This document shows positions 15,860-41,111 of a stretch of 64,000 nt of DNA, piece after piece; position 1 is the stretch's first letter, and every line of letters starts with the position of its first letter. The notes beneath the pieces were generated by a model. It searched no databases and was not told where the DNA came from. It worked only from the letters and a program-made list of their open reading frames with translations. A program made the translations under genes and the position numbers. The DNA is from Thiomicrorhabdus sp. zzn3 (GTDB lineage: Bacteria; Pseudomonadota; Gammaproteobacteria; Thiomicrospirales; Thiomicrospiraceae), in assembly GCF_029767755.1 (NCBI RefSeq), contig NZ_JARUQS010000001.1:434001-498000 (forward strand), given 5' to 3'.

Positions 15860-15884
15860 TCTTTTTTCAGCGGTGATTTCGACC

Positions 15885-15913
15885 AGGCCTGTTCAGTTTG
15901 ACAGGCCTTTTTT
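15885..15913 (+). terminator. Terminator built from paired CAGGCCTG-type elements
   Basis: AGGCCTGT, an 8-nt loop, ACAGGCCT, then TTTTT, 26 bases after the channel gene. The left arm is part of a full CAGGCCTG copy at 15884-15891. Confidence 0.85.
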
Positions 15914-16027
15914 ATAAGTGGAATTCAGTAGTGGAATCGGCGGTTAAAACCAAAACTAATATCCTTTAAAAGGCTTGTTAATTCATAGGGTTATTGGGTG
16001 TTTAACAGATATTTAATTTTCAACTTC

Positions 16028-16056
16028 TTGATTTTTAAACTAATTTTATTTATAAT
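16028..16056 (+). promoter_or_regulatory. Sigma70-type promoter of the ectoine operon
   Basis: TTGATT, a 17-bp A/T-rich spacer, TATAAT. The expected start near 16063 gives a leader of about 300 nt before ectA. Confidence 0.7.
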
Positions 16057-16062
16057 GACGCA

Positions 16063-16363
16063 CTAAGTTAATAACCCAAAAGGTTAAACCATCAATTTAT
16101 CAGTTGTATCTAATACACTGTCATTTGCGTTTAGGCGCCTTTCTTATTTAGACCTGTATTTTGTCAAAAACGGGTCGAGTCTAATCCAAAGGACGAGTCC
16201 TGAGGAATCAATCGTATGGCTTTCGCCAAGCTCTATTCGTGACTTCTTTAAGTCTTTTGTAGCTCAGCATGCCATAGTCAGTCCTGTATCCTTGTTGATG
16301 CATATTTTCCTATTCCTGCGATTGGTTGAAACATTCACCTTCAAAGAAAAACGGTAAATCATC
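16063..16363 (+). promoter_or_regulatory. Long structured 5' leader of ectA
   Basis: The leader contains no large gene. GACCTGT (16151-16157) and ACGGGTC (16170-16176), extended by TTTT/AAAA inside, form a long hairpin. TTAGAC/GTCTAA (16148-16153/16179-16184) is a competing pairing. AGGAC-GA-GTCCT (16190-16201) follows, then a GAGGA-preceded 8-codon frame. GACTT-CTTT-AAGTC with TTTT (16241-16258) overlaps its stop codon like a weak terminator. Known riboswitch classes were not recognised. A regulatory role is inference. Confidence 0.35.
16216..16242 (+). CDS. Possible 8-codon leader peptide upstream of ectA
   Basis: The frame encodes MAFAKLYS and stops at TGA. GAGGA lies nine bases upstream of the ATG. 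Its stop overlaps a small terminator-like hairpin. Such short frames occur by chance, so this is only a candidate. Confidence 0.2.
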   Translation: MAFAKLYS

Positions 16364-16915
16364 ATGGAGACCGATACGTCAAAGAAGACGACATCAAAAA
16401 CAACAGACAACACCCCAACCCATTATTCAGACATTTCATTTCGCCACCCGTTGCTTGCCGATGGCAAAGCAATTTATGAATTGATCCGGCGTTCACCGCC
16501 TTTGGATCTGAATTCACGCTACCTCTATTTTCTGCAGGCCAGTCACTTTGCCGATACCTGTGTGATTGCGGAGTCTGAGCAAAGAATCGTCGGGTTCATC
16601 TCGGCTTATTTCAAACCCAATGAACCCGACAACTTATTTGTCTGGCAGGTCGCGGTGGATGAAACCATGCGGGGCAGAGGGTTGGGCGTCAAACTGCTTG
16701 AAGAGTTGGTTGCTTTGCAGAATAACAGCGAGCTTAACCGAATCTCAGCGACGATCAGCCCGTCTAACATCGCTTCACAAAAGCTTTTTGCACGTTTTGC
16801 GAGCCAACATGGTTATCAGGTTCATAAGGAATCCTATATTGAAGCCGAACAGTTTGGCGAAGATGCCCATGAAGCGGAAGAGCTCTATACCTTAACCCGT
16901 ATAGAAACGGAGTAG
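16364..16915 (+). CDS. ectA: L-2,4-diaminobutyrate acetyltransferase EctA
   Basis: GNAT enzyme that acetylates diaminobutyrate to N-gamma-acetyldiaminobutyrate, the second step of ectoine synthesis. 183 residues, with FRHPLLADGKAIYELIRRS, LDLNSRYLYFL and the acetyl-CoA-binding VDETMRGRGLGVKLL. The conserved TISPSNIASQKLF region follows. The first 25 residues are a Thr/Lys/Ser-rich extension of no clear function. The RBS is weak (AACGG), unlike those of ectB and ectC. First gene of ectABC; no ectD hydroxylase and no ectR regulator are present in the window. Confidence 0.95.
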   Translation: METDTSKKTTSKTTDNTPTHYSDISFRHPLLADGKAIYELIRRSPPLDLNSRYLYFLQASHFADTCVIAESEQRIVGFISAYFKPNEPDNLFVWQVAVDETMRGRGLGVKLLEELVALQNNSELNRISATISPSNIASQKLFARFASQHGYQVHKESYIEAEQFGEDAHEAEELYTLTRIETE

Positions 16916-17023
16916 GGCGACACACCAGAATAATCCAAATTAACGTTTAATTTTTCCTCGGCCTAGTGGGGTTGGGGAAGCTATGTAATTTTTATTTAAG
17001 TAGAGTGATTAAAAGGAAAAATC

Positions 17024-18283
17024 ATGTCTTTATCTATTTTTGACCAGTATGAATCTGAAGTGCGCGGTTATATTCGTTCGTTTCCGACGACGTTTGCCAA
17101 GTCCAAAGGCGCGGAAATCTGGGACGAAGCCGGGAAGCGCTATATTGACTTTTTTGCCGGTGCCGGTGCCTTGAACTATGGACACAACAATCCGGTTATC
17201 AACAACGCGGTGATTGATTATCTGCAAAATGACGGCATCGGCCACGCGCTGGATATGGCGACCGTCGCCAAACGCAATTTTATTGAAGGCTTTGTGAATA
17301 ATGTGCTTAAGCCACGTAATCTCGATTACAAATTGCAATTTGTCGGGCCGACCGGAACCAATGCGGTGGAAACGGCACTGAAAATTGCACGTAAAGTAAA
17401 AAAACGCACTCAGGTGATGTCTTTTACCAACGGATTCCATGGTATGACCATGGGCTCTTTGAGTATTACCGGTAACAGTTATTACCTGGACGAAAACTAC
17501 GGTGTGCCGGCTTATACCACTCAGGTGCCATTCCATAACTATCTGGGATCGGAAGTGAACACCATCGCCTATTTGCGCAAAATTCTTGAAGATGAATCGA
17601 GTGGAACCGAGTTGCCTGCGGCTATTGTCCTGGAAACCATTCAGGCCGAAGGCGGGATTAACGTCGCCGGGGCGGAGTGGCTGAAAGAGCTAAGAAAAAT
17701 TTGTGATGATTTCGACATTCTCATGATCGTCGATGACATTCAGGCCGGTAACGGACGTTCAAGCGACTTCTTCAGCTTTGAACGCGCCGGTATTGAGCCG
17801 GATATTGTGACCCTTTCCAAGTCAATTGGTGGTGGACATCCCATGTCATTAGTGTTGTTGAAGCCGGAACTGGATAAGTGGAGTCCGGGGGAGCACTCCG
17901 GTACTTTCCGCGGAAACAACCTGGCGTTCGTTGCGGCCAATGCGGCGATTCGTGAATACTGGGGCGACGACCAATTCTCTACCGAGGTCAAAGCTAAATC
18001 ACAGCTGGTCGAAAGCAAAATGCGCGACATGCAGGCGAAGTACCCTGAGCAGATTGTTGACGTGCGCGGTCACGGCATGATCTGGGGGGCCGAGTTTAAA
18101 GACCCTGAACTGGTTTCCAATACTTGCAGTATTGCTTTCGACAAGGGGTTGGTGATTGAAACCGCCGGATCGGAAGGTCAGGTGATTAAGTTCTTGGGGC
18201 CATTGATCATTAGCGAAGCATTGATCGAAGAAGGCTTCGCCATTCTGGAAGCGGCTTTGCAAGCTGCGATGCAACGAGCCTAA
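17024..18283 (+). CDS. ectB: Diaminobutyrate-2-oxoglutarate transaminase EctB
   Basis: PLP class III aminotransferase that makes L-2,4-diaminobutyrate from aspartate semialdehyde, committing carbon to ectoine. 419 residues, the usual EctB length. It begins FDQYESEVRGYIRSFP, has the cofactor region VGPTGTNAVETALKIARK, the Asp of MIVDDIQAGNGR and the PLP lysine in TLSKSIGGGHPM. RBS AAAGGAAAAATC. The gap to ectA is 108 bp with no terminator seen. Confidence 0.97.
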   Translation: MSLSIFDQYESEVRGYIRSFPTTFAKSKGAEIWDEAGKRYIDFFAGAGALNYGHNNPVINNAVIDYLQNDGIGHALDMATVAKRNFIEGFVNNVLKPRNLDYKLQFVGPTGTNAVETALKIARKVKKRTQVMSFTNGFHGMTMGSLSITGNSYYLDENYGVPAYTTQVPFHNYLGSEVNTIAYLRKILEDESSGTELPAAIVLETIQAEGGINVAGAEWLKELRKICDDFDILMIVDDIQAGNGRSSDFFSFERAGIEPDIVTLSKSIGGGHPMSLVLLKPELDKWSPGEHSGTFRGNNLAFVAANAAIREYWGDDQFSTEVKAKSQLVESKMRDMQAKYPEQIVDVRGHGMIWGAEFKDPELVSNTCSIAFDKGLVIETAGSEGQVIKFLGPLIISEALIEEGFAILEAALQAAMQRA

Positions 18284-18308
18284 TAACTCTCAAAGGAAAA
18301 GAAGATAG

Positions 18309-18704
18309 ATGATTGTTCGAAATTTATATGACGACATTATTGGTACCGAAGCCGATGTAGACAGCAAACAGTGGAACAGCCGACGTTTGTTGCTGGCTAA
18401 AGACGGCATGGGCTTCTCGTTGCACGACACCTTGATTAAAGAGGGCGAGGATCTGCACCTGTGGTACAAAAACCACTTGGAAGCGGTCTACTGCATCGAA
18501 GGTGAGGGCGAGATCGTTGAGAAAAAAGACGGTACCGTACACCCGATTCGTGAAGGCACCGTGTATGCGCTGAACGAACATGACCAGCATATTTTGCGTG
18601 CCAACAAAGGGGTGGCGATGCGTATGGTTTGCGTGTTCAATCCACCGGTAACCGGGCGAGAAGTCCATGATGAAGACGGCTCGTATTCTTTGCCTGACGC
18701 CTAA
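18309..18704 (+). CDS. ectC: L-ectoine synthase EctC
   Basis: Cupin enzyme closing N-gamma-acetyldiaminobutyrate to ectoine, 131 residues. The characteristic MIVRNLYDDIIGTE start, the HLWYKNHLEAVYCIEGEGE metal/substrate strand and the LNEHDQHILRA cupin motif are all present. RBS AAAGGAAAAG. It lies 25 bases after ectB, clearly in the same operon. Confidence 0.98.
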   Translation: MIVRNLYDDIIGTEADVDSKQWNSRRLLLAKDGMGFSLHDTLIKEGEDLHLWYKNHLEAVYCIEGEGEIVEKKDGTVHPIREGTVYALNEHDQHILRANKGVAMRMVCVFNPPVTGREVHDEDGSYSLPDA

Positions 18705-18737
18705 GACTTATCCTGAAAAACTGATTTAAGGCGAAAA

Positions 18738-18761
18738 AAACCCAACAGGCCTGTTGGGTTT
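18738..18761. terminator. 24-bp perfect palindrome between ectC and ask, with CAGGCCTG core
   Basis: AAACCCAACAGG followed directly by its reverse complement. Preceded by A7 and followed by TTT, it can form a hairpin in the transcript and may reduce read-through from ectC into the aspartokinase gene. Confidence 0.6.
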
Positions 18762-18813
18762 CCATTCGTTACCTTCAATCGGACTTAAGTGAAATACACA
18801 TCCTAAAGGAACC

Positions 18814-20244
18814 ATGTCACAGTTAACAGTTGAAAAAATTGGTGGCACGTCAATGAGTGACTACCAAGCGGTAAGAGACAATATTATTCTTTACCCGGAA
18901 AATCCCTATCAACGCATTTTTGTCGTCTCGGCTTACGGCGGCATTACCGATGATCTTTTAGAGCATAAAAAAACCGGACAGCCAGGCGTGTATGGCCTGT
19001 TCGCCAATGACGATGTCGAAGACGATTGGCGCATTGCGCTGGATCGACTCAGTCTGAAAATGAATAAAATCAACGCGCGACTGTTTGCCGATGAACGCCT
19101 GCGCAGCATGGCCAATGATTTTATTGACGAACGCATCGCCGAAACCAAGCAGCTGCTCAATCACCTGCAAGATTTGTGCAGTCACGGCCATTTTTCACTG
19201 GAACAGCACCTGTTGACCGTCCGTGAACTGCTTGCTTCCATTGGCGAAGCGCACAGTGCCTGGAACCTGGCTCACCTGCTGCAAACCGAGGGGGTGAACG
19301 CACGCTTTGTCGACCTTTCCGGTTGGCAGTCTAATGAGACTTTGCCGCTCGATGAGATGATTCAGAAGCATCTGACGCACATCGATTTTTCACAAGAATT
19401 GCCGATTGTCACCGGTTATGCGCACTGTCGCGAAAACCTGATGCACACCTTTGACCGAGGGTACAGTGAGATGACGTTCAGTCGCATCGCTGTGTTGACA
19501 CAGGCGCATGAGGCGGTCATCCATAAGGAGTATCACCTGAGCAGCGCTGACCCTCGTCTGGTAGGCGAGGAGTGTGTGGTGCCGATTGGAAAAACCAACT
19601 ACGATATTGCCGATCAGCTGGCGAATTTGGGGATGGAGGCGATTCATCCCAAGGCGGCGAAAGGGTTGCGTCAGGCACAAATTCCTTTACGCATCAAAAA
19701 CACGTTTGAACCAGAGCATCACGGCACGCTGATCACCGACGATTACGTTTCTGAATCGCCACAAGTTGAGATCATTGCCGGCATGAAAAACCTCATCGCC
19801 GTTGAGGTGTTCGATCAGGAGATGTTGGGGCAGCAGGCGGATTATGAGCGTGAGCTGCTGAATATTCTGCAGCGTTTGCGCTGTCAGGTGGTCACTAAGG
19901 ATTTTAACGCCAATACCATTACCCTGTATGTGAATGCCAGCTTGAAAAAAGTGAAGCAGCTGACCGGGCAGATCGAAACCGCCTTGCCATGCGCAGCCGT
20001 TTCAACCAGTAAAGTGTGCCTGGTCTCGGCGATGGGAAGCGATATGGCCATCAAAGGATTACTGTCAAAAGCCGTGCAGACGCTGTATGAACAGAACATT
20101 AACATTGAAGCGTTGCACCAGAATACACGCCAGGTTGAGATGCAGTTTTTACTCAATGAATCCGATTTTGAAACTGCAGTACAGGCTCTGCACGCGGTTT
20201 TGATTGAAGTCCACGATCACGGTACCGCGATATGCGAACATTAA
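18814..20244 (+). CDS. ask: Ectoine-type aspartate kinase
   Basis: Aspartokinase dedicated to ectoine synthesis (Ask_Ect), 476 residues. It starts VEKIGGTSMSDYQAVRDNI instead of the usual KFGGTS, a hallmark of this subfamily, and continues IFVVSAYGGITDDLLEHKKTGQPGV. Two C-terminal ACT-type regions (about 330-470) are visible. The family is reported as less feedback-inhibited than housekeeping enzymes; that is family knowledge. RBS AAAGGAACC. Its last 13 bases overlap the next gene. Confidence 0.95.
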   Translation: MSQLTVEKIGGTSMSDYQAVRDNIILYPENPYQRIFVVSAYGGITDDLLEHKKTGQPGVYGLFANDDVEDDWRIALDRLSLKMNKINARLFADERLRSMANDFIDERIAETKQLLNHLQDLCSHGHFSLEQHLLTVRELLASIGEAHSAWNLAHLLQTEGVNARFVDLSGWQSNETLPLDEMIQKHLTHIDFSQELPIVTGYAHCRENLMHTFDRGYSEMTFSRIAVLTQAHEAVIHKEYHLSSADPRLVGEECVVPIGKTNYDIADQLANLGMEAIHPKAAKGLRQAQIPLRIKNTFEPEHHGTLITDDYVSESPQVEIIAGMKNLIAVEVFDQEMLGQQADYERELLNILQRLRCQVVTKDFNANTITLYVNASLKKVKQLTGQIETALPCAAVSTSKVCLVSAMGSDMAIKGLLSKAVQTLYEQNINIEALHQNTRQVEMQFLLNESDFETAVQALHAVLIEVHDHGTAICEH

Positions 20245-21107
20245 TTTTTACTTTGTTGCTGGCGTTGCTTCCAGCTTTTGCACAAAGCGCAGAAGAGCGT
20301 CACGACAAGCAGACACATTCTTTGGAAGAGCTCAATTCGCTTGATGAGCCGATGTACAACCCGTTTATAGAGCGCTATGTCATAGACGAACTGCGTCAGT
20401 TGCGGGTGGATATGAATGATCTGCACGTTGAGGTGACCAAAGAGGTGACCAATCGGGAGTTGGAAGCAACGACCTTGGCCGTCACCTATGCGTCGGATAC
20501 GGTGACCTATTTTTTCTATCTGATCGCCGGAGTCTCCTCCATTTTGGTGTTGGTGGGCTGGAATTCGATTCGAGACATTAAAGAGAAGGTGCATAGCCTG
20601 GCCGATACCAAGGTCAATCAGGTGATTACCGAGTATGAACAGCGTTTGGAACATCTCGAAGAGGAGCTGAATCGCAAATCTCGCGGGATCACCAGTGCGC
20701 AAAAACGCATCAGTCAACATCAGGATATTCACAGCCTATGGCTGAAGGCCGGCCAGGAATCGATCCTAAGTAATCGCATGGCGATTTACGATCAGATCCT
20801 GGAATTGGACCCGGAAAATACCGAAGCCTTGACCTACAAAGCGGATGTGGCTCTGGAGATGAACGAACCTCAATGGGCTTTGAATCTGTGTAATCAAGCC
20901 TTGAGGATTGATGGGGATAATAAACACGCTTTCTATCAAATGGCAGGTGCTTACGCGTTATTGTCCAAGCCCTCGGATGCGATCGAATATCTCAAAAAAG
21001 CGTTAGAAGACTCGGAAGGGTATAAGGATCAGGTCAAAAACGATCCGGTATTTGACTCGCTGCATGAGCATGAAGAATTTCAAGCACTGATTGAAATGAA
21101 AGAGTAG
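20232..21107 (+). CDS. Exported membrane-anchored TPR protein coupled to ask
   Basis: No specific function recognised. The 291 residues are, in order: a signal peptide (1-20, ending AQSA), a helical segment, a membrane helix (about 91-110), a coiled coil (about 115-165), and TPR repeats (about 168-288, for example EALTYKADVALEMNEPQWAL). The signal peptide and the internal helix place residues 21-90 in the periplasm and the coiled coil and TPR part probably in the cytoplasm. The ATG lies inside the last codons of ask, so translation is probably coupled. I know of no standard role for such a protein in ectoine synthesis. Confidence 0.85.
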   Translation: MRTLIFTLLLALLPAFAQSAEERHDKQTHSLEELNSLDEPMYNPFIERYVIDELRQLRVDMNDLHVEVTKEVTNRELEATTLAVTYASDTVTYFFYLIAGVSSILVLVGWNSIRDIKEKVHSLADTKVNQVITEYEQRLEHLEEELNRKSRGITSAQKRISQHQDIHSLWLKAGQESILSNRMAIYDQILELDPENTEALTYKADVALEMNEPQWALNLCNQALRIDGDNKHAFYQMAGAYALLSKPSDAIEYLKKALEDSEGYKDQVKNDPVFDSLHEHEEFQALIEMKE

Positions 21108-21128
21108 AGGGGCTGCCCTTGTCGCTTG

Positions 21129-21164
21129 GTCTAAAAAAACCGCCATAGAGCGGTTTTTTTAGAC
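21129..21164. terminator. Bidirectional terminator after the ect operon
   Basis: GTCTAAAAAAACCGC, loop, GCGGTTTTTTTAGAC; a perfect 15-bp inverted repeat serving the TPR gene and the convergent dsrE-like gene. Confidence 0.93.
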
Positions 21165-21190
21165 TGTATCGCTAGCTATCAGGAAAAGGG

Positions 21191-21712: not shown

Positions 21713-21867
21713 AACAAAACTCCTAATATTTTAATTTCTTATGCATTATACTGAGGAATTTCGATAAGATGAGAAGGTTGGGATATAAAATCTTTTTATA
21801 AAGAGGGTTGCAATCCGTCAGGCTTTTTCACGGCTTTAATTTAGTGTTATGTTTAAGAGGTAGGGCC

Positions 21868-22167
21868 ATGTCAATTCAGTCTCAGATTGAACAAGCGATT
21901 CAATCAAACTTTAAGATTTCTTTTTTTGATTTGAAAAACGAAAGTCATATGCATGCCGGCCCGGATACGGAATCGCATTTCAAATTGACCTTGGTATCGG
22001 AGGATTTTGACGGCGTTACCAAGGTGAAGCGTCAGCAAGCGGTCTATCGTGCTTTAAAAGAGATTATGCCGAAGTTTCATGCCTTGGCATTACATACCTA
22101 TACGCCACAAGAGTGGGGAGAACTTCAACAGGTTCCGGCGTCTCCTCGCTGTAGCGGCGGACACTAA
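21868..22167 (+). CDS. bolA: BolA-family protein
   Basis: A 99-residue BolA-like protein; these partner monothiol glutaredoxins in iron-sulfur metabolism. Seen are the class II KH-like fold pattern, the conserved RQQAVYRALKEIM helix and ALALHTYTPQEW at the C-terminal strand, with His available for cluster ligation. GAGGTAGGG before the internal ATG decides the start; an upstream in-frame start would add about 20 unrelated residues. No glutaredoxin gene is adjacent. Confidence 0.88.
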   Translation: MSIQSQIEQAIQSNFKISFFDLKNESHMHAGPDTESHFKLTLVSEDFDGVTKVKRQQAVYRALKEIMPKFHALALHTYTPQEWGELQQVPASPRCSGGH

Positions 22168-22183
22168 AAGCCTAAAGCAGGTT

Positions 22184-22780
22184 TTATGCGCTCTGTTCCG
22201 CTTCCGAATCCGCTTCCTCATCCGCAACCAATTCCGGATGTTGTAAGTGCCAGATTTTGGTGAATTTTTCCAGTTTTAACTGAGTTTGCAGTAAAGCGAC
22301 GGCTTGAATGTACTGATCGATATACATATAGCGGCCTTTACGCAGCGATTGCCAGAGATGACGATATTTCTCCGGCAAAAAGTCTTTAAAGTGCGGCACC
22401 AGGCCAAATTCACCTTCGGTGGCGGCAATGCGTTGAATGACCACATTGCGTGCCTGAAGACGAAACTGCTGATCGTATTGGTCCAGCAGGCGGGCGATAA
22501 AATAGAGCAGGCCTGCTGAGATGAGAAAGCTGGCAATCAGGGCATTAAACAGAAAGGCGCCGAGCAAAGTAAACAGAACCAATAGGATGGCGCTCACCGG
22601 GATAGTCAGGATCGAAATCCACTGTTTGTTGCCCTTAAGCTGATTGGTGGTTTCAATCACATCAAACTGTGCTAAATCGACCGATTTTAAACGGTTAAAC
22701 ATCTCTTCCGCACTAGGAACCGTCGGTTCCTGCTGAAGGTTTTCCGCTTCTTCGATCGGCGCTTGTTGTGCTGCATCCAT
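22184..22780 (-). CDS. Unknown membrane protein with two helices
   Basis: Not recognised. The 198 residues have an acidic Glu/Gln/Ala-rich start (1-30), an SVDLAQFDVIETTNQLKG segment, then a hydrophobic hairpin (about residues 54-95) of two membrane helices. A basic cytoplasmic region follows (RNVVIQRIAATEGEFGLVPHF, then KYRHLWQSLRKGRYMYIDQY), with an acidic tail. The tail carries no recognised motif. It is convergent with bolA and lies about 70 bp upstream of apaH on the same strand. Confidence 0.7.
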   Translation of the reverse strand: MDAAQQAPIEEAENLQQEPTVPSAEEMFNRLKSVDLAQFDVIETTNQLKGNKQWISILTIPVSAILLVLFTLLGAFLFNALIASFLISAGLLYFIARLLDQYDQQFRLQARNVVIQRIAATEGEFGLVPHFKDFLPEKYRHLWQSLRKGRYMYIDQYIQAVALLQTQLKLEKFTKIWHLQHPELVADEEADSEAEQSA

Positions 22781-25598: not shown

Positions 25599-25631
25599 CA
25601 GGCCTGCTGAGAGTGAAGGTGAGCAGGCCTG
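25599..25631. repeat. Inverted pair of CAGGCCTG elements between surA and pdxA
   Basis: CAGGCCTGCT (25599-25608) and AGCAGGCCTG (25622-25631) form a 10-bp stem with a 13-nt loop. No U-tract follows, so it may attenuate or stabilise the surA-pdxA transcript rather than terminate it. Confidence 0.7.
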
Positions 25632-27005: not shown

Positions 27006-29399
27006 TTAAAAATTGAGCCGTCGGCTGAGGGTATCTTTGAAGGTTCGGCCGCTGGTACTCAAGCCCTTAAGTTCAATCATAAACTGAAAGCTGTAATTAT
27101 ACAGACCATTTTCCAGTTGTGTCTCTTCTACGGAAAATTCTCCGGCCCAGCAGCAATCATCGTAACGCAGCGCATATTGCACTTCGTTGCGGATTTCCTG
27201 GGTAAAGTCGTAATTCCAGTAAGCCCCGCCTTGCCACTTGTTGGCAATTTCAAAGGTGGCACCTAATCCGAGGGTGGCCTGTTCGGTCGGTAAATTATTG
27301 TCGGTGAGGGTGTAGTTCACCAGAACCTTATCGGTATCGGAGAGATCCCAGCGTAGGCGGCTGTTACTGTTCACCAGATCGGTGTCTTCTTGGGAGAACT
27401 GGCTGGTTGAATAGAAATAGAGAGCCTGAGCGGTCACGCCGAGTTTGACGAAATAATCCGATTGTTCCGCGGTTTCCAGAGTGTTGCCGCTTAAGCTTAC
27501 TTGACGGTCATCCAGATAAAAAATCTGCCCGATGCCCGCTTCAAGCAGCGGGGTGCCGTTTTGGTTGAGGATTTTGCTGGTCAAAGCGGCGGAAACCTGA
27601 GTGGTATCGCCGATGCGGTCATAACCGGAAAAGCGGTTCAAAGCAAACAGATTGGAAAAGTGCAGACTTTTGTTGGTGGTGTCAAACAGCGGCACGTCAG
27701 ACTGGTCTACATAGGGAACATGCAGATATTGCAGCTCCGGCTCCAGGGTTTGAATCAACGGCACGCCGGAAAAGTCAAAGTCGCGTTCAAAGACCAAGCC
27801 GCCACGCAGTGCATATTGCATGACGGTGTGTTCAATATCCAGCTCATCGCCGCTGTAATTGCCGTTGTCGTGAATGGAATAGCGCAGGTGGTTAGCGGTC
27901 ACGCTGGCCTGCAGGTTGCCCCAAGGTTGGTACATCCCGTAGCGAATTTCCGGCACCAGGCGTGCGCGCAGAGCTTCCGGTTTGTTATGCGAGCTTAGCG
28001 GAACATCAAATTCGGTCGCTTCGCTGAGAACCGACCACTGGAAATCGCCGAACTCATTCTGATAGCGCGCGCCCACTTCCGGGCGCTTTTCATAGTTGAC
28101 CGGCGCGTCTCTCAAACGCAAGTAGCTGTACAGCTGCGTATAGGCCTGCCAATGGGCATCGCGATAATTTAATGTCACATAACGCGGGGTGGAGGTCACG
28201 GTTTTCAGCGCGTTTTCCACCGGGATGTCGGAGAAGAAATTTTCGTCAGACGTTTCATGCCATAAAATCTGGCTGGTCAGCCCCGGAGCCCATTGCTGAC
28301 TGGCGAGTAGTTTGCCGCGCCAGCGTTGTTCGATGGGTTCGCCGTAGACCACATCGTCGCCCAGCAGATAGGCCAGACCCTCGCTGGCGGTCTGCTGATC
28401 ATTCAAGAAGGTGGCGGTAAACTCCGCTTGATGACGAACCGAACCGCTTTTGGCCAGATAGCGGAATTCGTTTTCCAATATCGGCCCGCGGTTTTCCATA
28501 TACATCAGCGTCAAGGTGTCGTCGTAATTGGGTGCCAAATTGAAGTAGTACGGCAGCTTGACGTAAAAACTGGAACGGTCTTCGGTAATCGCTTTATAAC
28601 CGCCAAATTCGGGAAACAGCAATCCGCTGGCGCGATCATCCAAGGGGTAGTCGAAATAGGGGGTGTAGAAAATCGGCACATCATGGAACAGCAGCGTGGT
28701 GTGTTTGCCGATCACTCGGCGGTTGTGGTTGTTGATCTCCAAGTCGTCAAACTTCAGCTGCCAGGCCACCTGTTCCTGGTTTTCCGAAGCCAGGGTGCCG
28801 TCCTGCAACCGGTTTTGAATCGGGCAGGTGGTGAGGGTGGCCTGGTGCAGATGCGCCACCTCTTTTTGCTGATTCAGGTCAATGGTTTTGGCGTGACCGT
28901 GAGTGCGGCTCGGTATAAGCTGGTAGCGGGTGTGTTGCAGTTTTGCGGTTTGCTGTTGATTGTCCAGCTTCGCGTGCTGTGCGGTGAGCAGCAGGTCGTT
29001 GCGGTGCAATTCCACCTGACCGCTGGCCTGCGCCTGCTGAGTGTCTCTGCGGTAGCGAATTTCGTCGGCCAGCAACACGGAACCCGGGTGATGCACTTCG
29101 GCTGAACCGGTCAGACGAAATTCGTTCTGGTCGGGTTGAGTCAAACGGTCGGCTTCCATTTGGGTAGCTTGGGGAGTGGTTTGGTCTGTTTGCTCTGCGG
29201 GCACCTCGATCGGCTGGGCAATCCATTGCGGCAGACACTCCGCCGCACGTTGTTCTGCTACGGGCAACAGGGGTTGCGTTTGTGCCAAGGTCGGCTGACT
29301 CAATAGCGCTACGCTTGCACTCAGCGTGATGACCTTGCAATTTGAACAGGCCTGGTGGCTTTGAAAAAGTCTGTAAAAGCGTACAATCCGGTTTGACAT
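27006..29399 (-). CDS. lptD: LPS assembly outer-membrane protein LptD
   Basis: Outer-membrane beta-barrel that inserts lipopolysaccharide on the cell surface. About 797 residues. A signal-like hydrophobic stretch ends TLAQTQ. The OstA jellyroll (roughly residues 80-200) contains LLADEIRYRRDTQQAQASG, and the barrel holds FYTPYFDYPLDDRASGLLFPEFGG, the classic LptD block. Cysteines near the start of the mature part (C53) and in the late DDCCW pair could form the disulfides of the family. An alternative ATG lies 15 bases upstream; neither has a clear RBS. Confidence 0.94.
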   Translation of the reverse strand: MSNRIVRFYRLFQSHQACSNCKVITLSASVALLSQPTLAQTQPLLPVAEQRAAECLPQWIAQPIEVPAEQTDQTTPQATQMEADRLTQPDQNEFRLTGSAEVHHPGSVLLADEIRYRRDTQQAQASGQVELHRNDLLLTAQHAKLDNQQQTAKLQHTRYQLIPSRTHGHAKTIDLNQQKEVAHLHQATLTTCPIQNRLQDGTLASENQEQVAWQLKFDDLEINNHNRRVIGKHTTLLFHDVPIFYTPYFDYPLDDRASGLLFPEFGGYKAITEDRSSFYVKLPYYFNLAPNYDDTLTLMYMENRGPILENEFRYLAKSGSVRHQAEFTATFLNDQQTASEGLAYLLGDDVVYGEPIEQRWRGKLLASQQWAPGLTSQILWHETSDENFFSDIPVENALKTVTSTPRYVTLNYRDAHWQAYTQLYSYLRLRDAPVNYEKRPEVGARYQNEFGDFQWSVLSEATEFDVPLSSHNKPEALRARLVPEIRYGMYQPWGNLQASVTANHLRYSIHDNGNYSGDELDIEHTVMQYALRGGLVFERDFDFSGVPLIQTLEPELQYLHVPYVDQSDVPLFDTTNKSLHFSNLFALNRFSGYDRIGDTTQVSAALTSKILNQNGTPLLEAGIGQIFYLDDRQVSLSGNTLETAEQSDYFVKLGVTAQALYFYSTSQFSQEDTDLVNSNSRLRWDLSDTDKVLVNYTLTDNNLPTEQATLGLGATFEIANKWQGGAYWNYDFTQEIRNEVQYALRYDDCCWAGEFSVEETQLENGLYNYSFQFMIELKGLSTSGRTFKDTLSRRLNF

Positions 29400-30502: not shown

Positions 30503-31207
30503 ATGACGCAAGCTTCACGACCTGTCAAAGCGATGATTCTCGCCGCCGGACGCGGCAACCGTCTGCGGCCGCTGACCGATTCGATTCCCAAGCCGTTGGT
30601 GCCGCTGTGCGGCAAACCGCTGATTGAGTATCACATCGAAAAACTGGCCGCCGCCGGCGTGCAGGAGATTGTCATCAATCACGCCTGGTTGGGTGAACAG
30701 ATCGAGCAAACTTTGGGCAACGGTAAGCACTGGGGGATTAAAATTCATTATTCGCCGGAACCGGAAGGCGGCCTGGAGACCGCCGGCGGGATTATCAACG
30801 CCTTGCCACTATTGGGCAAGGAACCGTTTCTGGTAATCAACGGCGACGTCTTTTGTGAATTCGATTTTGCCGAATTGATTGCCCAGGCCTGTTCACTTTC
30901 ACAAAACACTTTGGCGCATCTGGTTCTGGTGCCCAGCCCCGAGTTCAATGCCAAGGGGGATTTCGGCTTGAGTCAAGCAGACTCAACAGGCCGAGTAGCA
31001 AGCCAAGGGCAATATACCTTTGCCGGTCTCAGTGTGATTCATCCAGACCTATTCAAAAACATGGCCGTCGATTTCATCAAACTCGCGCCGATTCTGCGTG
31101 AGGCGATGGACGCCAACCGGGTTAGCGGCCAACTCTACCAAGGACTCTGGTCTGACATCGGCACCTTGGAACGTTTGCAGGAGATGGAGCAAACGCTTTG
31201 CCAATGA
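30503..31207 (+). CDS. murU: N-acetylmuramate alpha-1-phosphate uridylyltransferase MurU
   Basis: Nucleotidyltransferase that converts MurNAc-1-phosphate to UDP-MurNAc, completing the AmgK-MurU recycling route. 234 residues. N-terminal AMILAAGRGNRLRPLTD with the nucleotide-binding loop, PKPLVPLCGKPLIEYH, and the metal Asp of FLVINGDVFCEFDF. It starts four bases after the amgK stop; a longer in-frame start inside amgK is less likely. Carries one CAGGCCTG in its coding sequence. Confidence 0.92.
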   Translation: MTQASRPVKAMILAAGRGNRLRPLTDSIPKPLVPLCGKPLIEYHIEKLAAAGVQEIVINHAWLGEQIEQTLGNGKHWGIKIHYSPEPEGGLETAGGIINALPLLGKEPFLVINGDVFCEFDFAELIAQACSLSQNTLAHLVLVPSPEFNAKGDFGLSQADSTGRVASQGQYTFAGLSVIHPDLFKNMAVDFIKLAPILREAMDANRVSGQLYQGLWSDIGTLERLQEMEQTLCQ

Positions 31208-31208
31208 G

Positions 31209-31216
31209 CAGGCCTG
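31209..31216. repeat. CAGGCCTG palindrome copy
   Basis: Copy placed directly after the murU stop, in the 26-bp gap before the pseudouridine synthase gene. Confidence 0.7.
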
Positions 31217-32378: not shown

Positions 32379-32413
32379 ACAGGCCTGGTAGGAGTGATTC
32401 CTACCAGGCCTGT
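32379..32413. terminator. Terminator formed by an inverted pair of CAGGCCTG elements
   Basis: ACAGGCCTGGTAGGA, loop GTGAT, TCCTACCAGGCCTGT: a perfect 15-bp stem containing two complete CAGGCCTG copies, followed by TTTGTTTT. It sits between the convergent HicA-like and MFS genes. Confidence 0.9.
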
Positions 32414-32429: not shown

Positions 32430-33617
32430 TTACCGATTTGGAGAGTATAAAGGCAATATGTTTTTGAATATCGTGATCGTCAAGAGCACGGAAACCAGTC
32501 CAACGACTGAAAACTCCAATGCCCAAATTGCGCCAAACTGTTCCCATATTTGCCCGATAATCAGGCTGCCAACTGCCGTCGCCAGCGCGGTTCCCAAATA
32601 AAAAATGCCATAAGCACGCCCTTTTTTATGTTCGGTCTGCCCGATGCGGCTGCGCATGGCATTCAAACCGGTCACCATAAACACTCCCTGAAAAACAAAT
32701 GCCAACACCAGGCTGACCGGGCTTTGCATTAACAGCAGGCCTGCTGAGATCACCCCCGCCCAAAGACTTGTCTGCATTAAAAAACGTGCGCCATTGAACT
32801 GGCCGGTAGCATCTACACGTTTACCCGCCCGGTAGCTGATAAGGGTTTGAGTAAGGGCCGAGCTGACCATTAACAGCGGCAGCCATTGTGTGGCAATGCC
32901 GATCTCACTGCCTCTAATCACCATAAAGGCATCGCTTAACATAAAGAATACGGCCAAAAAGTAGATTGTAAACCAGCCCCATAATGAGCTGTCCATCTGA
33001 CCTGAGGTCGTTTCTGGTGCAAGGGGTTTAGGCTGTTTTTGAATCAGGTCTTTGACCCAAAAAATCAGGATAAACAAGCCTAGCAGACCCGGCAGCAGGC
33101 TGAGCTCAAAAATGATTCTGATCCAGTGTTCTGATTGCCCCAGCCAAGTTAACAGTAAAAAGGCCAGAATGCCGCCGAGCATTTCTCCGGCAATGTCGAG
33201 GGTTTTATGCACGCCAAAGGCGCGCCCCTGTTGTTGTGGTTGCGCCGAAGCAGAAATAAGCACATCTTTGGGTGCGCTGCGGATCGCTTTACCCAACCGT
33301 TCGGTTGCACTGATGGCCGCCACGCTTCCCCAGTTTTCGGCCAAAGAGAAAAGCGGTTTCATAATGGTGGACAGGGCGTAACCGATCAGCAGCAGCGGTT
33401 TGGTTACCTGCAGGGTGTCGCTCAGCCAGCCTCCAAACCAGCGGAACAGATAAGACACCAGAGTGGTAATGGCGATGACATAACCGAGTTTGTCGACCCC
33501 CTGATGAAGTACGAGTACCACATAGATCGGGATGAGCGGTTTGATCATCGCGGTGGCCAGGTCGGTAAAAAAACTGACCCAGCCCAGTGCCCAGATATTT
33601 TTGGAAATGGTGGACAT
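32430..33617 (-). CDS. Major facilitator superfamily transporter
   Basis: A 395-residue inner-membrane carrier with about 11-12 hydrophobic helices. The motif ATERLGKAIRSAPKDVLISA and the early LGWVSFFTDLATAMIKPLIP place it in a subgroup of MFS proteins of unknown substrate. Downstream in transcription is the paired-repeat terminator. The next gene upstream is the bile-acid-symporter-family carrier on the same strand, 43 bases away, so both may be co-transcribed. Confidence 0.85.
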   Translation of the reverse strand: MSTISKNIWALGWVSFFTDLATAMIKPLIPIYVVLVLHQGVDKLGYVIAITTLVSYLFRWFGGWLSDTLQVTKPLLLIGYALSTIMKPLFSLAENWGSVAAISATERLGKAIRSAPKDVLISASAQPQQQGRAFGVHKTLDIAGEMLGGILAFLLLTWLGQSEHWIRIIFELSLLPGLLGLFILIFWVKDLIQKQPKPLAPETTSGQMDSSLWGWFTIYFLAVFFMLSDAFMVIRGSEIGIATQWLPLLMVSSALTQTLISYRAGKRVDATGQFNGARFLMQTSLWAGVISAGLLLMQSPVSLVLAFVFQGVFMVTGLNAMRSRIGQTEHKKGRAYGIFYLGTALATAVGSLIIGQIWEQFGAIWALEFSVVGLVSVLLTITIFKNILPLYSPNR

Positions 33618-37433: not shown

Positions 37434-40045
37434 GGCTTGTTTCCCCTTTTAAAAGCTTTAGCAAGTGCTTCTTCTAAGGCCTTTCTTTGGTAAGGTTTGC
37501 GAAGGAAAATAAAATCTTGCGGGAGTTTTTGCTGGTTGTGTAGCATCTCCTCTGAAAAGCCGCTACTGAGGATAAAACGTATATTCGGGTATTGCGCTTT
37601 TGCCTGATGGTATAAGGCGAGCCCATCCAGTTTGCCAGGCATGACAATATCGGAAAGAATGAGGTCATACTCTTTTTTCTGCAGTTGTTCCCAGGCTTCA
37701 TCGGCATTGTGGCATACCTCGCAAGCAAACCCTAAGTGGCTTAAAAAAGACTCGGCGACTTCAGCCAGGTCGGTCTCATCATCAATCACCAACGCTTTAA
37801 GGCCCAGATAGTTTTCCGAGAATTCAATTTGAGGATAGGTGGCTTTATCCCGGTTTTCAGACTCCGTTTCTTGTGCGACCGGAAGGTAAAGGTGTATGCT
37901 GGTGCCACGTCCAACTTCACTGTAAATTCTCATATGGCCATGAGACTGCTTAATAAAACCGTAGATCATCGCCAGCCCCAGTCCCGTGCCTTTGCCTTTT
38001 TCTTTGGTGGTGAAGAAAGGCTCCAGAACCTTATTAATCAGTTCTCTGGGGATGCCTTCTCCGGTGTCGCTGACCTCAATTAAGACATAATCCCCGGTGT
38101 CGATTTTCTCAGGCAGGGTGCGAATGTATTCTTCGGATAGAATGACATGAGAAGCATTGATCTCAATCACACCGCCTTCGGGCATGGCGTCTCGTGCGTT
38201 GACCGCCAGGTTGATTATGGCATTGGTGAGTTCATTAGGATCGGCATTGATTAAGGGCAGATTATCTTCAAGATTTAATGTTAACTTTATCTGGCCTTTA
38301 ATGCTGTGTTTGAGAATAGCGACGACTTCCTCCAAAAGCGGTTTGAGCCCCAAGGTTTCGTTTTGTAAGGCTTTTTTTCTTGAGAAAGCGAGCAGTTTTT
38401 GGGTGAGTTCGGCCGCAGACAGTACCGCTTTTTTGATCTTGGTAAGCTGTTGAAAGGCTTTGCTGTCTGGCTCGATCTGCATTTCCATGAGTTCCAGGTT
38501 TCCGAGAATGATTCCAAGCAAGTTGTTGAAATCATGAGCGATTCCGCCGGTAAGCTGGCCGAGCGCTTCCATTTTTTGTTTTTGGCGGATCTGTTCCTGG
38601 TAAGAGTGTTGTTCCGTGACATCATGGATCAGAGTAATGGCTTTGACTTCCTTGCCAACCCTTACGGGATCGATCATGACTTCAATCAGGCGTTGGTGTC
38701 CACTTGGATGCGTGTATTGAAACGGGTGGTTTCGAGTCGCATGAATCCGTCTTGGGGATTTATTGAACTGCTGGCGGTAGGTTTTGTGTTTTTCCTGGAA
38801 AGATTTCGGCATGAGGGATTCAACGTCATTTCCCAGCAATTCAGACTCTAAGCGTCCTAGCATGACTTCGGCGGCCGGATTGACTTGCTCTATCGTGCCG
38901 TTGTGACCCACAACAAGCAGACCATCGGGGATGGCATTGAGCAGTGTTTGGAATTGATCGTTGGCTTCTCTTAAATCCCCTTCTCTTTTGGATAGGGTTT
39001 TGACCAAACTGCTCAGGCGGTTTCCTGTTTTTAGCGCAAAAACACCAATAAGGCTGAGCAGTAAGGCGATGAGATAAGGCCATTGGTTTTGCCACCAAAA
39101 ACCGTTGATCGCGCTGTTTTTATTGAGTTTAGCCAAAATGTACCAGGGAAGATCTCTGGCCTGGGTGGCAAGCATGTTTGCGGCAGGGTGTTGATCACAC
39201 TCGCCCAGTCCACAGATTTTATGGAAGCTGTAATAGTGGTCTTGAACCTCCAATTCACTAACAGGTCCAGATTGTTGCATTTGTTGCCAGAGAACCGGAT
39301 CTATGGCGCTAAGCGAAGCGCTTTTTTGATTAAACATAAACCCCCATAGAGGGAAGGTCTTGTCGGTACTAAACAGGATGTAGCCGTTCCGGTTTAAAAT
39401 TGAAAATTCCCCTAAATCCTTATTTAATAAATAATCCACTTTGGTTAAGAGCCGGGTGGCGTCATAGTTGAGGATCATATAACCGATGGTTGTTTGACCG
39501 CTGTAGTCCGTGATGGGGGTGGCGAAACGGAGCATCGGTTTCCATGGCGTTTCAATCTCGCCGTTTTCTACGTTCAGGTCAAGTTGGGATTGGTATATTT
39601 CCCCCGGTTTTAGCTTTTCTGACTCTGCAAAATAGTAGCGGTCCGCCTTATTTTGTAATCTGTTTTCCTCGATTCTGAAGCTGCGACCTTTTTCCCGATC
39701 GATTCGCACCACTTCTTGGCCGGTTATATCCAAAAGACGTATTTGTGCATACCTTTTGTTTTGTTCCGAGAAGAGAAGGTATTCGTTACATAGATGATTG
39801 GTAATCGCGGTGCTTTCGCCAAGCAAAACCTCTCTCGCTTTGGTTTGATGGCTTAGGTAAGTGAGATCGGCATACACTTGAGAGAGTTCATTAACAATGG
39901 TATGGCTGATCTGTTGAACCGTGTTATTGAGCTGTTTTTGACTGGCTTGCTGACGTAGCTGTTTATCCATATAAAACACAGCCAGCATTAATCCTATAAT
40001 CAGGATGAAAACGGGAATTAAGAATAGATACTGGCGTTGTTTCAT
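37430..40045 (-). CDS. Hybrid sensor histidine kinase with periplasmic sensor, PAS and receiver
   Basis: 871 residues from the chosen ATG (RBS AAGGATC). A membrane helix at about 7-25, a periplasmic Cache-like sensor region (about 30-290), a second helix (about 297-315) and a PAS domain (LLNAIPDGLLVVGHNG). The phospho-accepting His is in GGIAHDFNNLLGIILGN. HATPase_c (ELTNAIINLAVNARDAM, GKGTGLGLAMIYGF) and a C-terminal receiver with Asp in DLILSDIVMPGKLD follow. No Hpt domain is seen in it or its partner. An in-frame upstream start is unlikely. Confidence 0.93.
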   Translation of the reverse strand: MKQRQYLFLIPVFILIIGLMLAVFYMDKQLRQQASQKQLNNTVQQISHTIVNELSQVYADLTYLSHQTKAREVLLGESTAITNHLCNEYLLFSEQNKRYAQIRLLDITGQEVVRIDREKGRSFRIEENRLQNKADRYYFAESEKLKPGEIYQSQLDLNVENGEIETPWKPMLRFATPITDYSGQTTIGYMILNYDATRLLTKVDYLLNKDLGEFSILNRNGYILFSTDKTFPLWGFMFNQKSASLSAIDPVLWQQMQQSGPVSELEVQDHYYSFHKICGLGECDQHPAANMLATQARDLPWYILAKLNKNSAINGFWWQNQWPYLIALLLSLIGVFALKTGNRLSSLVKTLSKREGDLREANDQFQTLLNAIPDGLLVVGHNGTIEQVNPAAEVMLGRLESELLGNDVESLMPKSFQEKHKTYRQQFNKSPRRIHATRNHPFQYTHPSGHQRLIEVMIDPVRVGKEVKAITLIHDVTEQHSYQEQIRQKQKMEALGQLTGGIAHDFNNLLGIILGNLELMEMQIEPDSKAFQQLTKIKKAVLSAAELTQKLLAFSRKKALQNETLGLKPLLEEVVAILKHSIKGQIKLTLNLEDNLPLINADPNELTNAIINLAVNARDAMPEGGVIEINASHVILSEEYIRTLPEKIDTGDYVLIEVSDTGEGIPRELINKVLEPFFTTKEKGKGTGLGLAMIYGFIKQSHGHMRIYSEVGRGTSIHLYLPVAQETESENRDKATYPQIEFSENYLGLKALVIDDETDLAEVAESFLSHLGFACEVCHNADEAWEQLQKKEYDLILSDIVMPGKLDGLALYHQAKAQYPNIRFILSSGFSEEMLHNQQKLPQDFIFLRKPYQRKALEEALAKAFKRGNKP

Positions 40046-40263
40046 AAAGATCCTTAACAATCTTTGACATTTTTCAACACAAAGGCATACGCCTGATTCA
40101 ATCATAACGCTGTATTATTACCAGGATAATAATTTTTACTTATGTATAAGGTGTTTTTTTAAATAACCTATCTTTTCAGTAGGAAATTATAGAATGTGGG
40201 GGGTTCGCAGTAAGAGAATGTTTTATAATGTTCCGGTTAAGTTTAGAAAAGAGGATTGGGTCG

Positions 40264-41040
40264 ATGTTGATGCTTGTTTCCCCCGCTAAATCACTGGACG
40301 AAAGTACGCCCGTACAAACTGAAATGCATTCACAATGCGCTCTGTTGGATCAAGCGGCACAGCTGATCGACGAGTTAAAGCAGATGGGGCCGGTAGAGAT
40401 CGCTCAGTTAATGCATATCAGCGATAAATTGGCGGAACTGAACTATGAGCGCTTTCAGGAGTGGCAATTGCCGTTTCCTGAAGAGAAAGCCAAGCAAGCG
40501 GCCTGGTTGTTTAAAGGCGATGTGTATCAAGGATTAGATGCCTATTCGTTAGACGAAAAAGGGGTTAACTACATTCAAAACCACCTGCGTATTCTGTCCG
40601 GGCTGTATGGGGTGTTGAAACCCTGCGATGATATGCTGCCGTATCGCCTGGAGATGGGGACCAAATTTGCCAATGCCCGAGGCAAGGACCTATATGCGTT
40701 TTGGGGAAGTCGCATTACGGAATTGCTAAACACAGACTTGGTGGAGCAGGGCAGTCAAACCGTTGTTAACCTGGCGTCCAACGAATATTTCAAAGCGGTC
40801 AAGAAAAAAGAACTTAACGGGCGCATCATTACGCCGATTTTTAAGGATTGGAAAAACGGTCAGTATAAAATCATCAGTTTTTACGCGAAAAAAGCGCGTG
40901 GCTTGATGGCGCGTTATGCCGCGGATCATCAAGTGGAAAATGCTGAGGATTTGAAATATTTCGATTATGAAGGCTATGCGTTTGCCCCGGATCTTTCCTC
41001 CGAGAGTGACTGGGTCTTTACCCGCAAGCTTGACGCTTAA
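40264..41040 (+). CDS. yaaA: Peroxide stress protein YaaA (DUF328)
   Basis: 258 residues. It opens [15 protein letters not shown] and carries [21 protein letters not shown] and [15 protein letters not shown], all characteristic of YaaA. In E. coli the protein limits free iron and damage under peroxide stress and binds DNA. The chosen ATG matches the family start; earlier in-frame starts add a non-conserved leader. It is divergent from the hybrid kinase and ends in a paired-repeat terminator. Confidence 0.95.
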
Positions 41041-41062
41041 TCGCACGCGTTAAAGTTATCTG

Positions 41063-41111
41063 AAACGGAACAGGCCTGGTAGGAATGCCTGTTACCCGGC
41101 CTGTTCCGTTT
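41063..41111. terminator. Terminator between yaaA and hslO with CAGGCCTG in the stem
   Basis: AAACGGAACAGGC and GCCTGTTCCGTTT form a 13-bp stem around a 23-nt loop that itself holds further short pairings. A full CAGGCCTG (41071-41078) lies in the left arm. TTT follows on the plus strand and AAA precedes, so it can act both ways. Confidence 0.8.

Follow-up and report, generated by a model that had tools for sequence, protein, structure and literature searches.

The octamer CAGGCCTG, which is iterated throughout the genome of Thiomicrorhabdus sp. zzn3, reads best, with moderate confidence, as an uptake-sequence-like tag for self-recognition of DNA, pairs of which have in part been co-opted as terminators. 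Twenty-six copies occur in the 64-kb window (the whole stretch of DNA analysed here), as opposed to about one expected (0.99), and the genome total of 859, against 21 for a reversed-word control, amounts to a roughly 40-fold over-representation. CAGGCCTG is a perfect palindrome, being its own reverse complement, and forms the core of a symmetric 24-bp motif, AAwCTGAnCAGGCCTGnTCAGwTT. The flanking T residues, 10-12 bp from the centre, accompany intergenic sites and, more weakly, coding sites, which implies selection on the DNA and not on RNA hairpins alone. A directional sub-motif within the word was considered and rejected, as the flanks on either side score almost independently of each other (symmetric correlation 0.08 for intergenic and 0.11 for coding sites). 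No report of CAGGCCTG as a genomic repeat was found among the literature titles and opening parts of abstracts listed.

Dialects of the word and positions kept in relatives

High-copy CAGGCCTG, designated dialect d1, is found in 18 of 37 family genomes, while some close relatives are nearly devoid of it. A different word, ACCGGCCGGT (d2), reaches 1025 copies in G023, and the sister pair G020 and G004 carries the asymmetric AACAGGCCGGG (d3). GGCC at the centre, with an A/T tract at a distance of 10-12 bp, is common to all three dialects. When high and low copy number of CAGGCCTG are mapped onto a gatB tree, four changes suffice; shuffled labels require about 11. An alternative word, G-runs with AAATTT after them, may be in use in a clade of six genomes; this candidate lacks the GGCC core of d1-d3, and G-runs at old d1 positions gave it no support, the one informative gap having a run of 6 in one of four relatives. 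Weak word excesses were seen in low-copy relatives G003, G010, G012, G013, G019, G024, G026 and G031 (40-135 kb each), as exemplified by CCGATACC in G003, with 29 copies where 5.7 were expected. The excess word of G019 was rejected as a dispersed tag, being one local tandem repeat. Genomes G032 and G034 entered this search as samples of only 10 and 5 kb, and a separate search for gap-enriched octamers misses CAGGCCTG in its own control, so that its silence is uninformative.

The word recurs in the same gaps of related genomes. In G025 it is present in seven of nine orthologous gaps with a site in the window, compared with 1 of 24 without (p 6e-5); the corresponding figures are 5/6 and 2/17 in G014 (p 0.003) and, for the d3 word of G020, 4/7 and 2/22 (p 0.018). 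In G020 the word has been replaced in place, the d3 word standing at old d1 positions. Genic sites are identical in G025 in 9 of 11 cases, where random octamers give 12%. Only one of nine is identical in G014, which is the chance level and counts against the uptake-tag reading.

Among individual genic sites, the octamers at 5400..5407 (in a PstC-like gene), 22508..22515, 44830..44837, 54125..54132 and 61551..61558 are identical in G025. The same holds for 30884..30891, where G020 has the d3 word CAGGCCGG, for 43208..43215, where it has CCGGCCTG, and for 47144..47151, where both G020 and G003 have CCGGCCTG. The gatB site at 54411..54418 is identical in four of five relatives, including G019, and is perhaps constrained by the protein. 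A second gatB site, 55378..55385, is not kept in G025 and corresponds to CCGGCCTG in G020. The site at 29347..29354, near the start of ORF 27006-29414, is likewise not kept in G025, and the ORF that contains 32736..32743 has no match in any of the five stretches used for comparison.

Other possible functions for an iterated palindrome

Highly iterated octameric palindromes that are swapped for others in some relatives are known from cyanobacteria, namely HIP1 (GCGATCGC) and the alternate HIPs (PMC4390886). As proposed there, such a word would be kept by a DNA methyltransferase together with methylation-directed mismatch repair. We consider this explanation unlikely here, although CAGGCCTG is likewise octameric, GC-rich, palindromic and abundant, the different palindrome of G023 recalls the alternate HIPs of Elhai 2015 (PMC4390886), and the zzn3 genome encodes one PF01555 protein. 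A search for the usual cytosine methylase families, PF00145 and PF01555, found no PF00145 member in zzn3 and neither family in 8 of the 17 d1-d3 genomes searched for both, against one of eight word-free genomes; the families being missing from many word-bearing genomes, the cytosine methylase reading is weakened. The usual methylase site, moreover, does not extend as far from the centre as the tracts, which stand at 10-12 bp. In contrast to HIP1, the present system shows no consistent cytosine methylase family, has extended A/T tracts, and includes an asymmetric dialect: extensions are palindromic in d1 and d2 but not in d3, whereas those of HIP1 all are (PMC4390886). Facing pairs behind genes, a feature of the present word, go unmentioned for HIP1 in the available part of that source.

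Slightly less probable again is a binding site for a chromosome-organising or nucleoid protein. The symmetric 24-bp motif would fit a dimer, and the genomic spread of sites is slightly evener than random (variance/mean 0.78 in 5-kb bins). A word-poor stretch, G000:C1:229-284 kb, has 7 sites per 55 kb, but was picked for its poverty and so provides no test. Site density is 4.99 per kb in convergent gaps and 0.29 per kb in divergent gaps, with sites clustering 3' of genes. For the site of an essential chromosome protein one would expect neither such a bias nor facing pairs, rewriting in place or near-absence from close relatives.

Close pairs, hairpins and terminators

The preliminary description had proposed that inverted pairs of the word form hairpins at gene ends, and that a dispersed word is there reused as a terminator. 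All four hairpins that it named do exist. The first, at 32379..32413, has a 15-bp stem made of two full copies with a start spacing of 25 and lies between two convergent ORFs, which end at 31935 and 32430; the folding energy is -31.1 kcal/mol for the minus strand (z -7.2) and -37.3 kcal/mol for the plus strand (z -10.0). In G025, G014, G020, G003 and G019, neither word turns up within 200 bases past the upstream gene. Two full copies, also at a start spacing of 25, form the 10-bp stem at 25599..25631, downstream of surA (25671-26969, minus strand; -21.7 kcal/mol, z -3.9), without a good U-run after it. The corresponding surA gap holds one CAGGCCTG in G025, one in G014 and a facing d3 pair in G020. 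Between yaaA (40228-41040, plus strand) and ORF 41124-42002 (minus strand), a full copy at 41063..41111 faces CCGGCCTG in a stem of at least 13 bp (-36.8 and -31.3 kcal/mol, z -7.8 and -6.7); here G025 has two CAGGCCTG copies in the gap and G020 a facing d3 pair behind yaaA. The fourth, on the plus strand at 15884..15913 after ORF 15029-15859, combines one full and one partial copy with a T-run as described (for 15885-15913), although its stem is of 9 bp and not 8. This stem, at 15885-15908, is followed by TTTTTT and folds at -18.0 kcal/mol (z -3.35), with 1 of 200 shuffles folding equally well. A terminator scan of positions 10000-29000, which leaves 32379 and 41063 outside, also lists the 15885 site; the scan found 26 sites as against 24.3 in shuffles, so a listing alone proves nothing.

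The inverted arrangement itself, which had been offered as evidence, is automatic: CAGGCCTG being palindromic, any two copies count as an inverted pair, and orientation carries no evidence in the zzn3 genome. The number of close pairs does. The proposed genome-wide count gave 37 pairs at gaps of 0-30 bp where 9.66 were expected (Poisson P 1.7e-11), and 10 at 31-61 bp, which is the chance number. The commonest gap, found in 12 of the 37, is 17 bp; the resulting start spacing of 25, seen in both exact pairs of the window, is that of extended 24-bp motifs set side by side with one base to spare. Pair spacings leave the flanks of the extended motif intact. In a 464-kb sample, all 13 close pairs are intergenic. 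Asymmetry makes orientation visible in d3. In the first 437 kb of G020 contig C1, the part for which both strands were listed (81 places), all six d3 pairs with starts at most 40 bp apart face each other (+-) with A-tracts outside. Facing (+-) pairs likewise make up three of three among the listed places of G004 and four of four at up to 60 bp in a 166-kb part of G020, one of which is shared with the 437-kb set.

These observations lend something to the view that the word is merely a preferred intrinsic terminator stem: hairpins stand at gene ends, convergent gaps are enriched, the hairpins have A/T tails, and mean folds in 60-nt windows are stronger at intergenic sites (-19.2 kcal/mol) than at genic sites (-14.9) or random places (-14.1). 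As with Rho-independent terminators, stable folds are formed by pairs and by certain long palindromes that stand singly, in some cases with U-runs. We nevertheless judge this view improbable, and terminator function as the main role was rejected on account of the genic sites and the separate terminators. Unlike such terminators, most copies are single (162 of 188 sites in the 464-kb sample are unpaired, and 54 of 80 intergenic sites lack a second exact copy within 40 bp), and 108 of 188 lie outside gaps, where coding sites still carry the flanks, if more weakly. A stem-loop with a U-run 3' of a gene describes 15885, 32379 and 41063, but not 25599, which has no good U-run, nor most other sites.

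Of the single intergenic sites of the window, some stand out in their folds and others do not. Those at 2014..2021, 14599..14606 and 60065..60072 share their gaps with an ordinary terminator that is retained in word-free species: the first, in a convergent gap, adjoins a bidirectional one and is represented by a facing d3 pair in G020; the second, whose fold does not stand out (z -1.3), has its separate terminator at 14526-14551, and G020 carries a d3 word in the corresponding gap; the third, in a convergent gap, centres AAACGGAACAGGCCTGTTCCGTTT, stands out in its fold (z -4.3 and -3.1) and corresponds to the d1 word in G025 and G014 and the d3 word in G020. An octamer in a tandem gap at 18746..18753, centring the perfect palindrome AAACCCAACAGGCCTGTTGGGTTT, also stands out (z -3.85). 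Folds are not unusual at 11601..11608 (TTTGAACAGGCCTGTTCA, after phoR; z -0.7) or at 56891..56898 (convergent gap; z -1.8). Of the remaining two, 31209..31216 lies directly past the stop of ORF 30443-31207 and 52268..52275 in a divergent gap, the rare class. The proposal of reuse as a terminator is supported in part, by the excess of pairs and their intergenic, A/T-tailed hairpins, and needs amending for the unpaired majority and for gaps with terminators of their own. With most sites unpaired and ordinary terminators separate in several gaps, terminator use looks like a by-product, secondary to the main role.

A mobile short repeat of the REP or MITE type, spread by transposition, is very improbable: copies are dispersed, in excess between genes and able to form hairpins, but measure only 8-24 bp, occur within genes too, where they fall in two main reading frames (50 and 46 of 102), and recur in the corresponding gaps of relatives whose mean protein identity is 73-79%, where G020 has the changed word.

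Comparison with known uptake sequences

Well-described uptake tags come from two families, the Neisseriaceae and the Pasteurellaceae, and in Neisseria and Pasteurellaceae pairs of uptake sequences act as terminators (PMC1852404), as the preliminary description had stated. That likeness is incomplete, in that published uptake sequences are stated to be non-palindromic and a terminator role for them has been doubted (PMC1939737); the former counts against an uptake-tag reading of the palindromic CAGGCCTG. The DUS of Neisseriaceae resemble the present words in having hundreds to thousands of copies, dialects with a common core (there CTG) and word-free genomes within the family (PMC3630211), as well as terminators from facing +- pairs (PMC1852404), here predicted from folds. 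They differ in being an asymmetric 10-mer with a short extension, where d1 and d2 are palindromes, and in having ComP as receptor, where the pilin found here is a candidate and the uptake role putative. The USS of Pasteurellaceae likewise combine a core with A/T tracts at a set distance, and their pair spacings spare the extension (PMC1852404). USS tracts, however, follow the core on one side, behind leading A's, while those reported here flank the core on both sides in d1 and d2, and in d3 on a single side.

Proposed mechanism and implications

On the uptake-tag reading, a sequence-specific DNA-binding protein would read the tag, most likely the DNA-receptor pilin of a type IV pilus uptake machine for natural transformation. 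The copies would be maintained by preferential uptake and recombination of DNA from the same species that bears the tag, and a species in which receptor specificity changed would have rewritten its tag genome-wide, of which the replacement in G020 may be an instance. Tags would accumulate just behind genes, where they do little harm; because copies gather there, two neighbours could easily fold into a hairpin with A and T tracts at its sides, and some of these pairs, to judge from their anatomy, may have been co-opted to terminate transcription. No uptake experiment for this family was found among literature titles and the beginnings of abstracts.

About evenly balanced, in our estimate, is the larger proposition that this family is the third among bacteria to have DNA-uptake tags throughout the genome and the first with a symmetric, both-strand tag, in which one lineage broke the symmetry (CAGGCCTG to CAGGCCGGGT, keeping a half-site and its A-tract), another adopted the new palindrome ACCGGCCGGT, and the six-genome clade may have a bare G-run in place of the core, with AAATTT kept. 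If so, GGCC-centred tags in an autotrophic group would extend uptake tags past the two well-described families, and the series of dialects would allow the co-evolution of tag and receptor specificity to be watched. The three dialects comprise some 20 genomes; together with a clade that may represent a fourth and with word-free relatives, these offer material for the study of tag gain, rewriting and loss. The asymmetry of d3 suggests that the reader contacts the core plus a single A/T tract; this would narrow the possible form of the receptor. The word could also serve as a quick marker of foreign DNA in these genomes.

Competence machinery and a candidate receptor

A receptor hunt using PF07963 and a six-sequence profile yielded a sole candidate, a solitary pilin between xerC and hslV. 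It is strongly matched in 9 of 21 d1-d3 genomes and in 1 of 16 others (p 0.02, kinship ignored); with the G-run clade counted as a dialect, the figures become 9/27 and 1/10 (p 0.23) and the association is gone. Strong matches are lacking in the high-copy genomes G008, G018, G033 and G036, and the candidate's distribution is too patchy to single it out as the receptor. N-methylated pilins occur in all 14 genomes searched, and 32 of the 37 family genomes have a ComEC match above the curated cut-off. ComEC was rejected as a discriminator, given that it and the pilins occur in word-free genomes too. In G020, a d3 genome, the ComEC match falls in two separate frames lying 37 kb from each other, and DNA uptake may therefore have been lost there.

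Copy number and extended motif

The palindromic octamer CAGGCCTG occurs 26 times in the window against 0.99 expected, a count that no shuffle reached. It is the commonest octamer of the window on the given strand; the runner-up among palindromic octamers has 6 copies. The whole genome of Thiomicrorhabdus sp. zzn3 (2,366,806 bases scanned, 6 contigs) holds 859 copies, compared with 21 of the reversed word. Reading outward on both sides of intergenic sites, the preferred bases at positions 1-8 are T (50%), T (84%), C (50%), A (53%), G (51%), T (56%), T (63%) and T (64%). Most of these preferences recur, more weakly, at coding sites (T 62% at position 2, A 48% at position 4, T 44%, 46% and 49% at positions 6-8), and the two flanks of a site vary almost independently. 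Octamer variants altered at positions 3 or 4 stay at chance level (observed/expected 0.73-1.05). Only CCGGCCTG is raised among position-2 variants (1.5), along with GAGGCCTG and TAGGCCTG at position 1 (2.4 and 2.8).

Gene context, close pairs and hairpins

Context and pairing were scored in a 464-kb sample, comprising the window and 20 stretches of 20 kb, with genes called by a scripted longest-ORF rule whose edges are approximate. Intergenic sites number 80 in 40,330 bases (1.98/kb), versus 108 sites (0.255/kb) outside gaps; a slightly different ORF rule gives 78 and 110. Density falls from 4.99/kb in convergent gaps to 1.82/kb in tandem and 0.29/kb in divergent gaps, and 31 of the 42 sites in tandem gaps lie closer to the upstream stop. 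A role in promoter regulation is disfavoured, because divergent gaps are depleted of the word.

The excess of facing pairs foreseen by the preliminary description is present genome-wide, with 37 pairs at gaps of 0-30 bp against 9.66 by random placement; at gaps of 31-61 bp there are 10, against the same 9.66. The 464-kb sample contains 13 pairs with starts at most 40 bp apart, seven in tandem gaps, six in convergent gaps and none intragenic. Counted by site, a second exact copy with its start 10-40 bp away accompanies 26/80 intergenic sites versus 0/106 genic sites (the other two of the 108 being too close to the edge of a stretch); for randomly chosen places the figure is 3.1%. The intergenic-genic difference has p 1.4e-11, taking genic sites as 0/108. 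The most frequent start spacing genome-wide is 25 (12/37 pairs), which fits two 24-bp extended motifs in succession, separated by a single base; passages of PMC1852404 give the same explanation for spacing peaks in Pasteurellaceae.

All four hairpins said to be built from facing copies at gene ends (32379-32413, 25599-25631, 15885-15913 and 41063-41111) do fold as there described, with qualifications. Inversion is automatic for any two copies, since the word reads identically on both strands. At window positions 18746 and 60065, lone octamers centre 24-bp perfect palindromes, which is a second route to a hairpin, one copy sufficing. Also in the window are ectB and a gene for aspartate kinase (17024-20244), which probably belong to an ectoine pathway.

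Distribution among relatives and dialects

Copy numbers of CAGGCCTG divide the 37 family genomes (G000-G036) into 18 with 236-1173 and 19 with 3-74. In 21 genomes of other families the excess is modest at most (0-222 copies versus 0-91 for controls; 108 versus 15 in G049). A 21-kb locus of Thiomicrospira sp. WB1 has 7 copies versus 1.3 expected, and that of Hydrogenovibrio sp. JE_KL2, also 21 kb, has none; SurA identity to the loci of named relatives, these two among them, is 47-48%. Together with a zzn3 gene cluster for RuBisCO, the carboxysome and DabA, these loci suggest a position of zzn3 close to the two genera. On a gatB tree of 32 rows, high and low copy number require 4 changes versus about 11 when the labels are shuffled. 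The two outgroup genera on the tree, G033 and G035, belong to the high-copy group; a third high-copy genus, G036, lies outside the tree. Because of this distribution the word looks ancestral, several lineages having apparently lost or replaced it. In a word-poor 55 kb of zzn3 (L117-L119, G000:C1:229001-284000), integrase and macro-domain genes adjoin genes for RuBisCO, the carboxysome, DabA and urea amidolyase.

Two further dialects accompany that of CAGGCCTG (d1). The d2 word, ACCGGCCGGT, has 1025 copies in G023; none of 39 further genomes, 24 from the genus and 15 from other families, exceeds 20 (G025-G036 were left out). The d3 word, AACAGGCCGGG, counted on both strands, has 511 copies in G020, 300 in its sister G004 and at most 9 in 26 other family genomes. 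Its longer consensus, AAACTCAACAGGCCGGGT, with more A ahead, is one d1 half-site, A-tract included, fused to CCGGGT. The A/T tract lies 10 bp from the GGCC centre in d1, 11 bp in d2 and 12 bp in d3; G014, a d1 genome, mostly uses the longer form ACCAGGCCTGGT. In G020 the ComEC match falls into two frames separated by 37 kb (G020:C1:50689-51309 and 88072-89325; loci L179 and L180), so the uptake channel of this d3 genome may no longer be intact, though its word is still abundant. In G019, L238:5514-5826 holds 27 tandem copies, at 12 bp, of a unit containing GAGCCTAAAC.

Conservation of position

Five relatives contributed stretches whose genes were matched to those of the window (mean protein identity 68.5-79.1%), and gaps were compared where both flanking genes are orthologous. 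The d1 word is found in 7/9 gaps of G025 that bear it in zzn3 versus 1/24 that do not, and in 5/6 versus 2/17 in G014. In G020, its own d3 word (here CAGGCCGG or CCGGCCTG) occupies 4/7 gaps that bear CAGGCCTG in zzn3 versus 2/22 others. G003 and G019, which do not use the word, have it in 0/5 and 0/8 site-bearing orthologous gaps and in none of the other gaps compared. Alignable genic sites are identical in 9/11 cases in G025 (12% for random octamers) and in 1/9 in G014 (8%); in G020, 1/11 is identical and 4/11 are the d3 word, for which 1/10 each in G003 and G019 gauges chance or ancestry. Positions in gaps thus survive greater divergence between genomes than positions within genes do. The gaps at 25599 and 41071 each have a facing d3 pair in G020 and neither word in G003 or G019; those at 2014, 14599 and 60065 have an additional ordinary terminator, retained in both of the latter.

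Mechanism and candidate receptor

In its anatomy the word matches uptake sequences as described in PMC1852404 and PMC3630211: a dispersed word with extended A/T tracts and a common core, dialects, lack of the word in some relatives, its replacement in place, facing pairs downstream of genes and, in d3, the +- arrangement. By this likeness a receptor, presumably a minor pilin, would read the word, uptake bias would maintain it, and its pairs would terminate transcription. A rival, the HIP model (Elhai, part of PMC4390886), predicts a methylase for every high-copy genome. PF01555 is present in 9/25 genomes searched, zzn3 among them; PF00145 is in 16/37 and missing from zzn3. Of the genomes scanned for the two families, 8/17 with a d1-d3 word lack both, versus 1/8 others. 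Methylases of these two families therefore do not track the word.

That minor pilins can serve as DNA receptors is shown or suggested by FimT, ComP and the proposed ComN (PMC12616744). A solitary minor pilin of zzn3 (L167:5035-5571, G000:C1:301035-301571) is strongly conserved in its C-terminal half (FKATWGGSSGANYGLIAG) and, apart from the prepilin motif, matches no known family. We take its neighbours to be xerC and hslV. It has a strong match in 10/51 genomes and is a candidate receptor, but it is only weakly linked to the word. Some dialect genomes are just 82-88% complete. Searches of the open-access literature gave, in the titles and abstract openings listed, no report of CAGGCCTG as such or of uptake sequences in Thiomicrospiraceae, and the word is unmentioned in the passages searched of PMC5217627, PMC1939737 and PMC6501319.

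A possible fourth dialect

Six genomes low in CAGGCCTG (G001, G011, G016, G022, G028 and G029) form one gatB clade with 2.4-6.1 runs of at least 7 G or C per 10 kb, versus 0-0.5 in 14 other family genomes. Observed runs number 14-44 versus 2.4-5.3 simulated, and this expected number is itself too high because the simulation learned from the very sequence under test. The common form, dense in 6/6 genomes (L035, L045, L046, L070, L242-L260), is 7-11 G with A ahead (80%) and A-R-AAATTT behind; it has no GGCC centre. While 116/150 runs lie outside gaps, their density is 2.05/kb in convergent, 1.01/kb in tandem and 0.26/kb in divergent gaps, and close pairs follow no orientation rule (3 -+, 2 +-). 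When former d1 positions were compared, just one gap was informative; there 1 of 4 relatives has a G-run, 6 long, which lends replacement in place no support. The runs could be phase-variable tracts or assembly effects of fragmented genomes; as a lead, G-run plus A-R-AAATTT is a possible fourth dialect of this clade.
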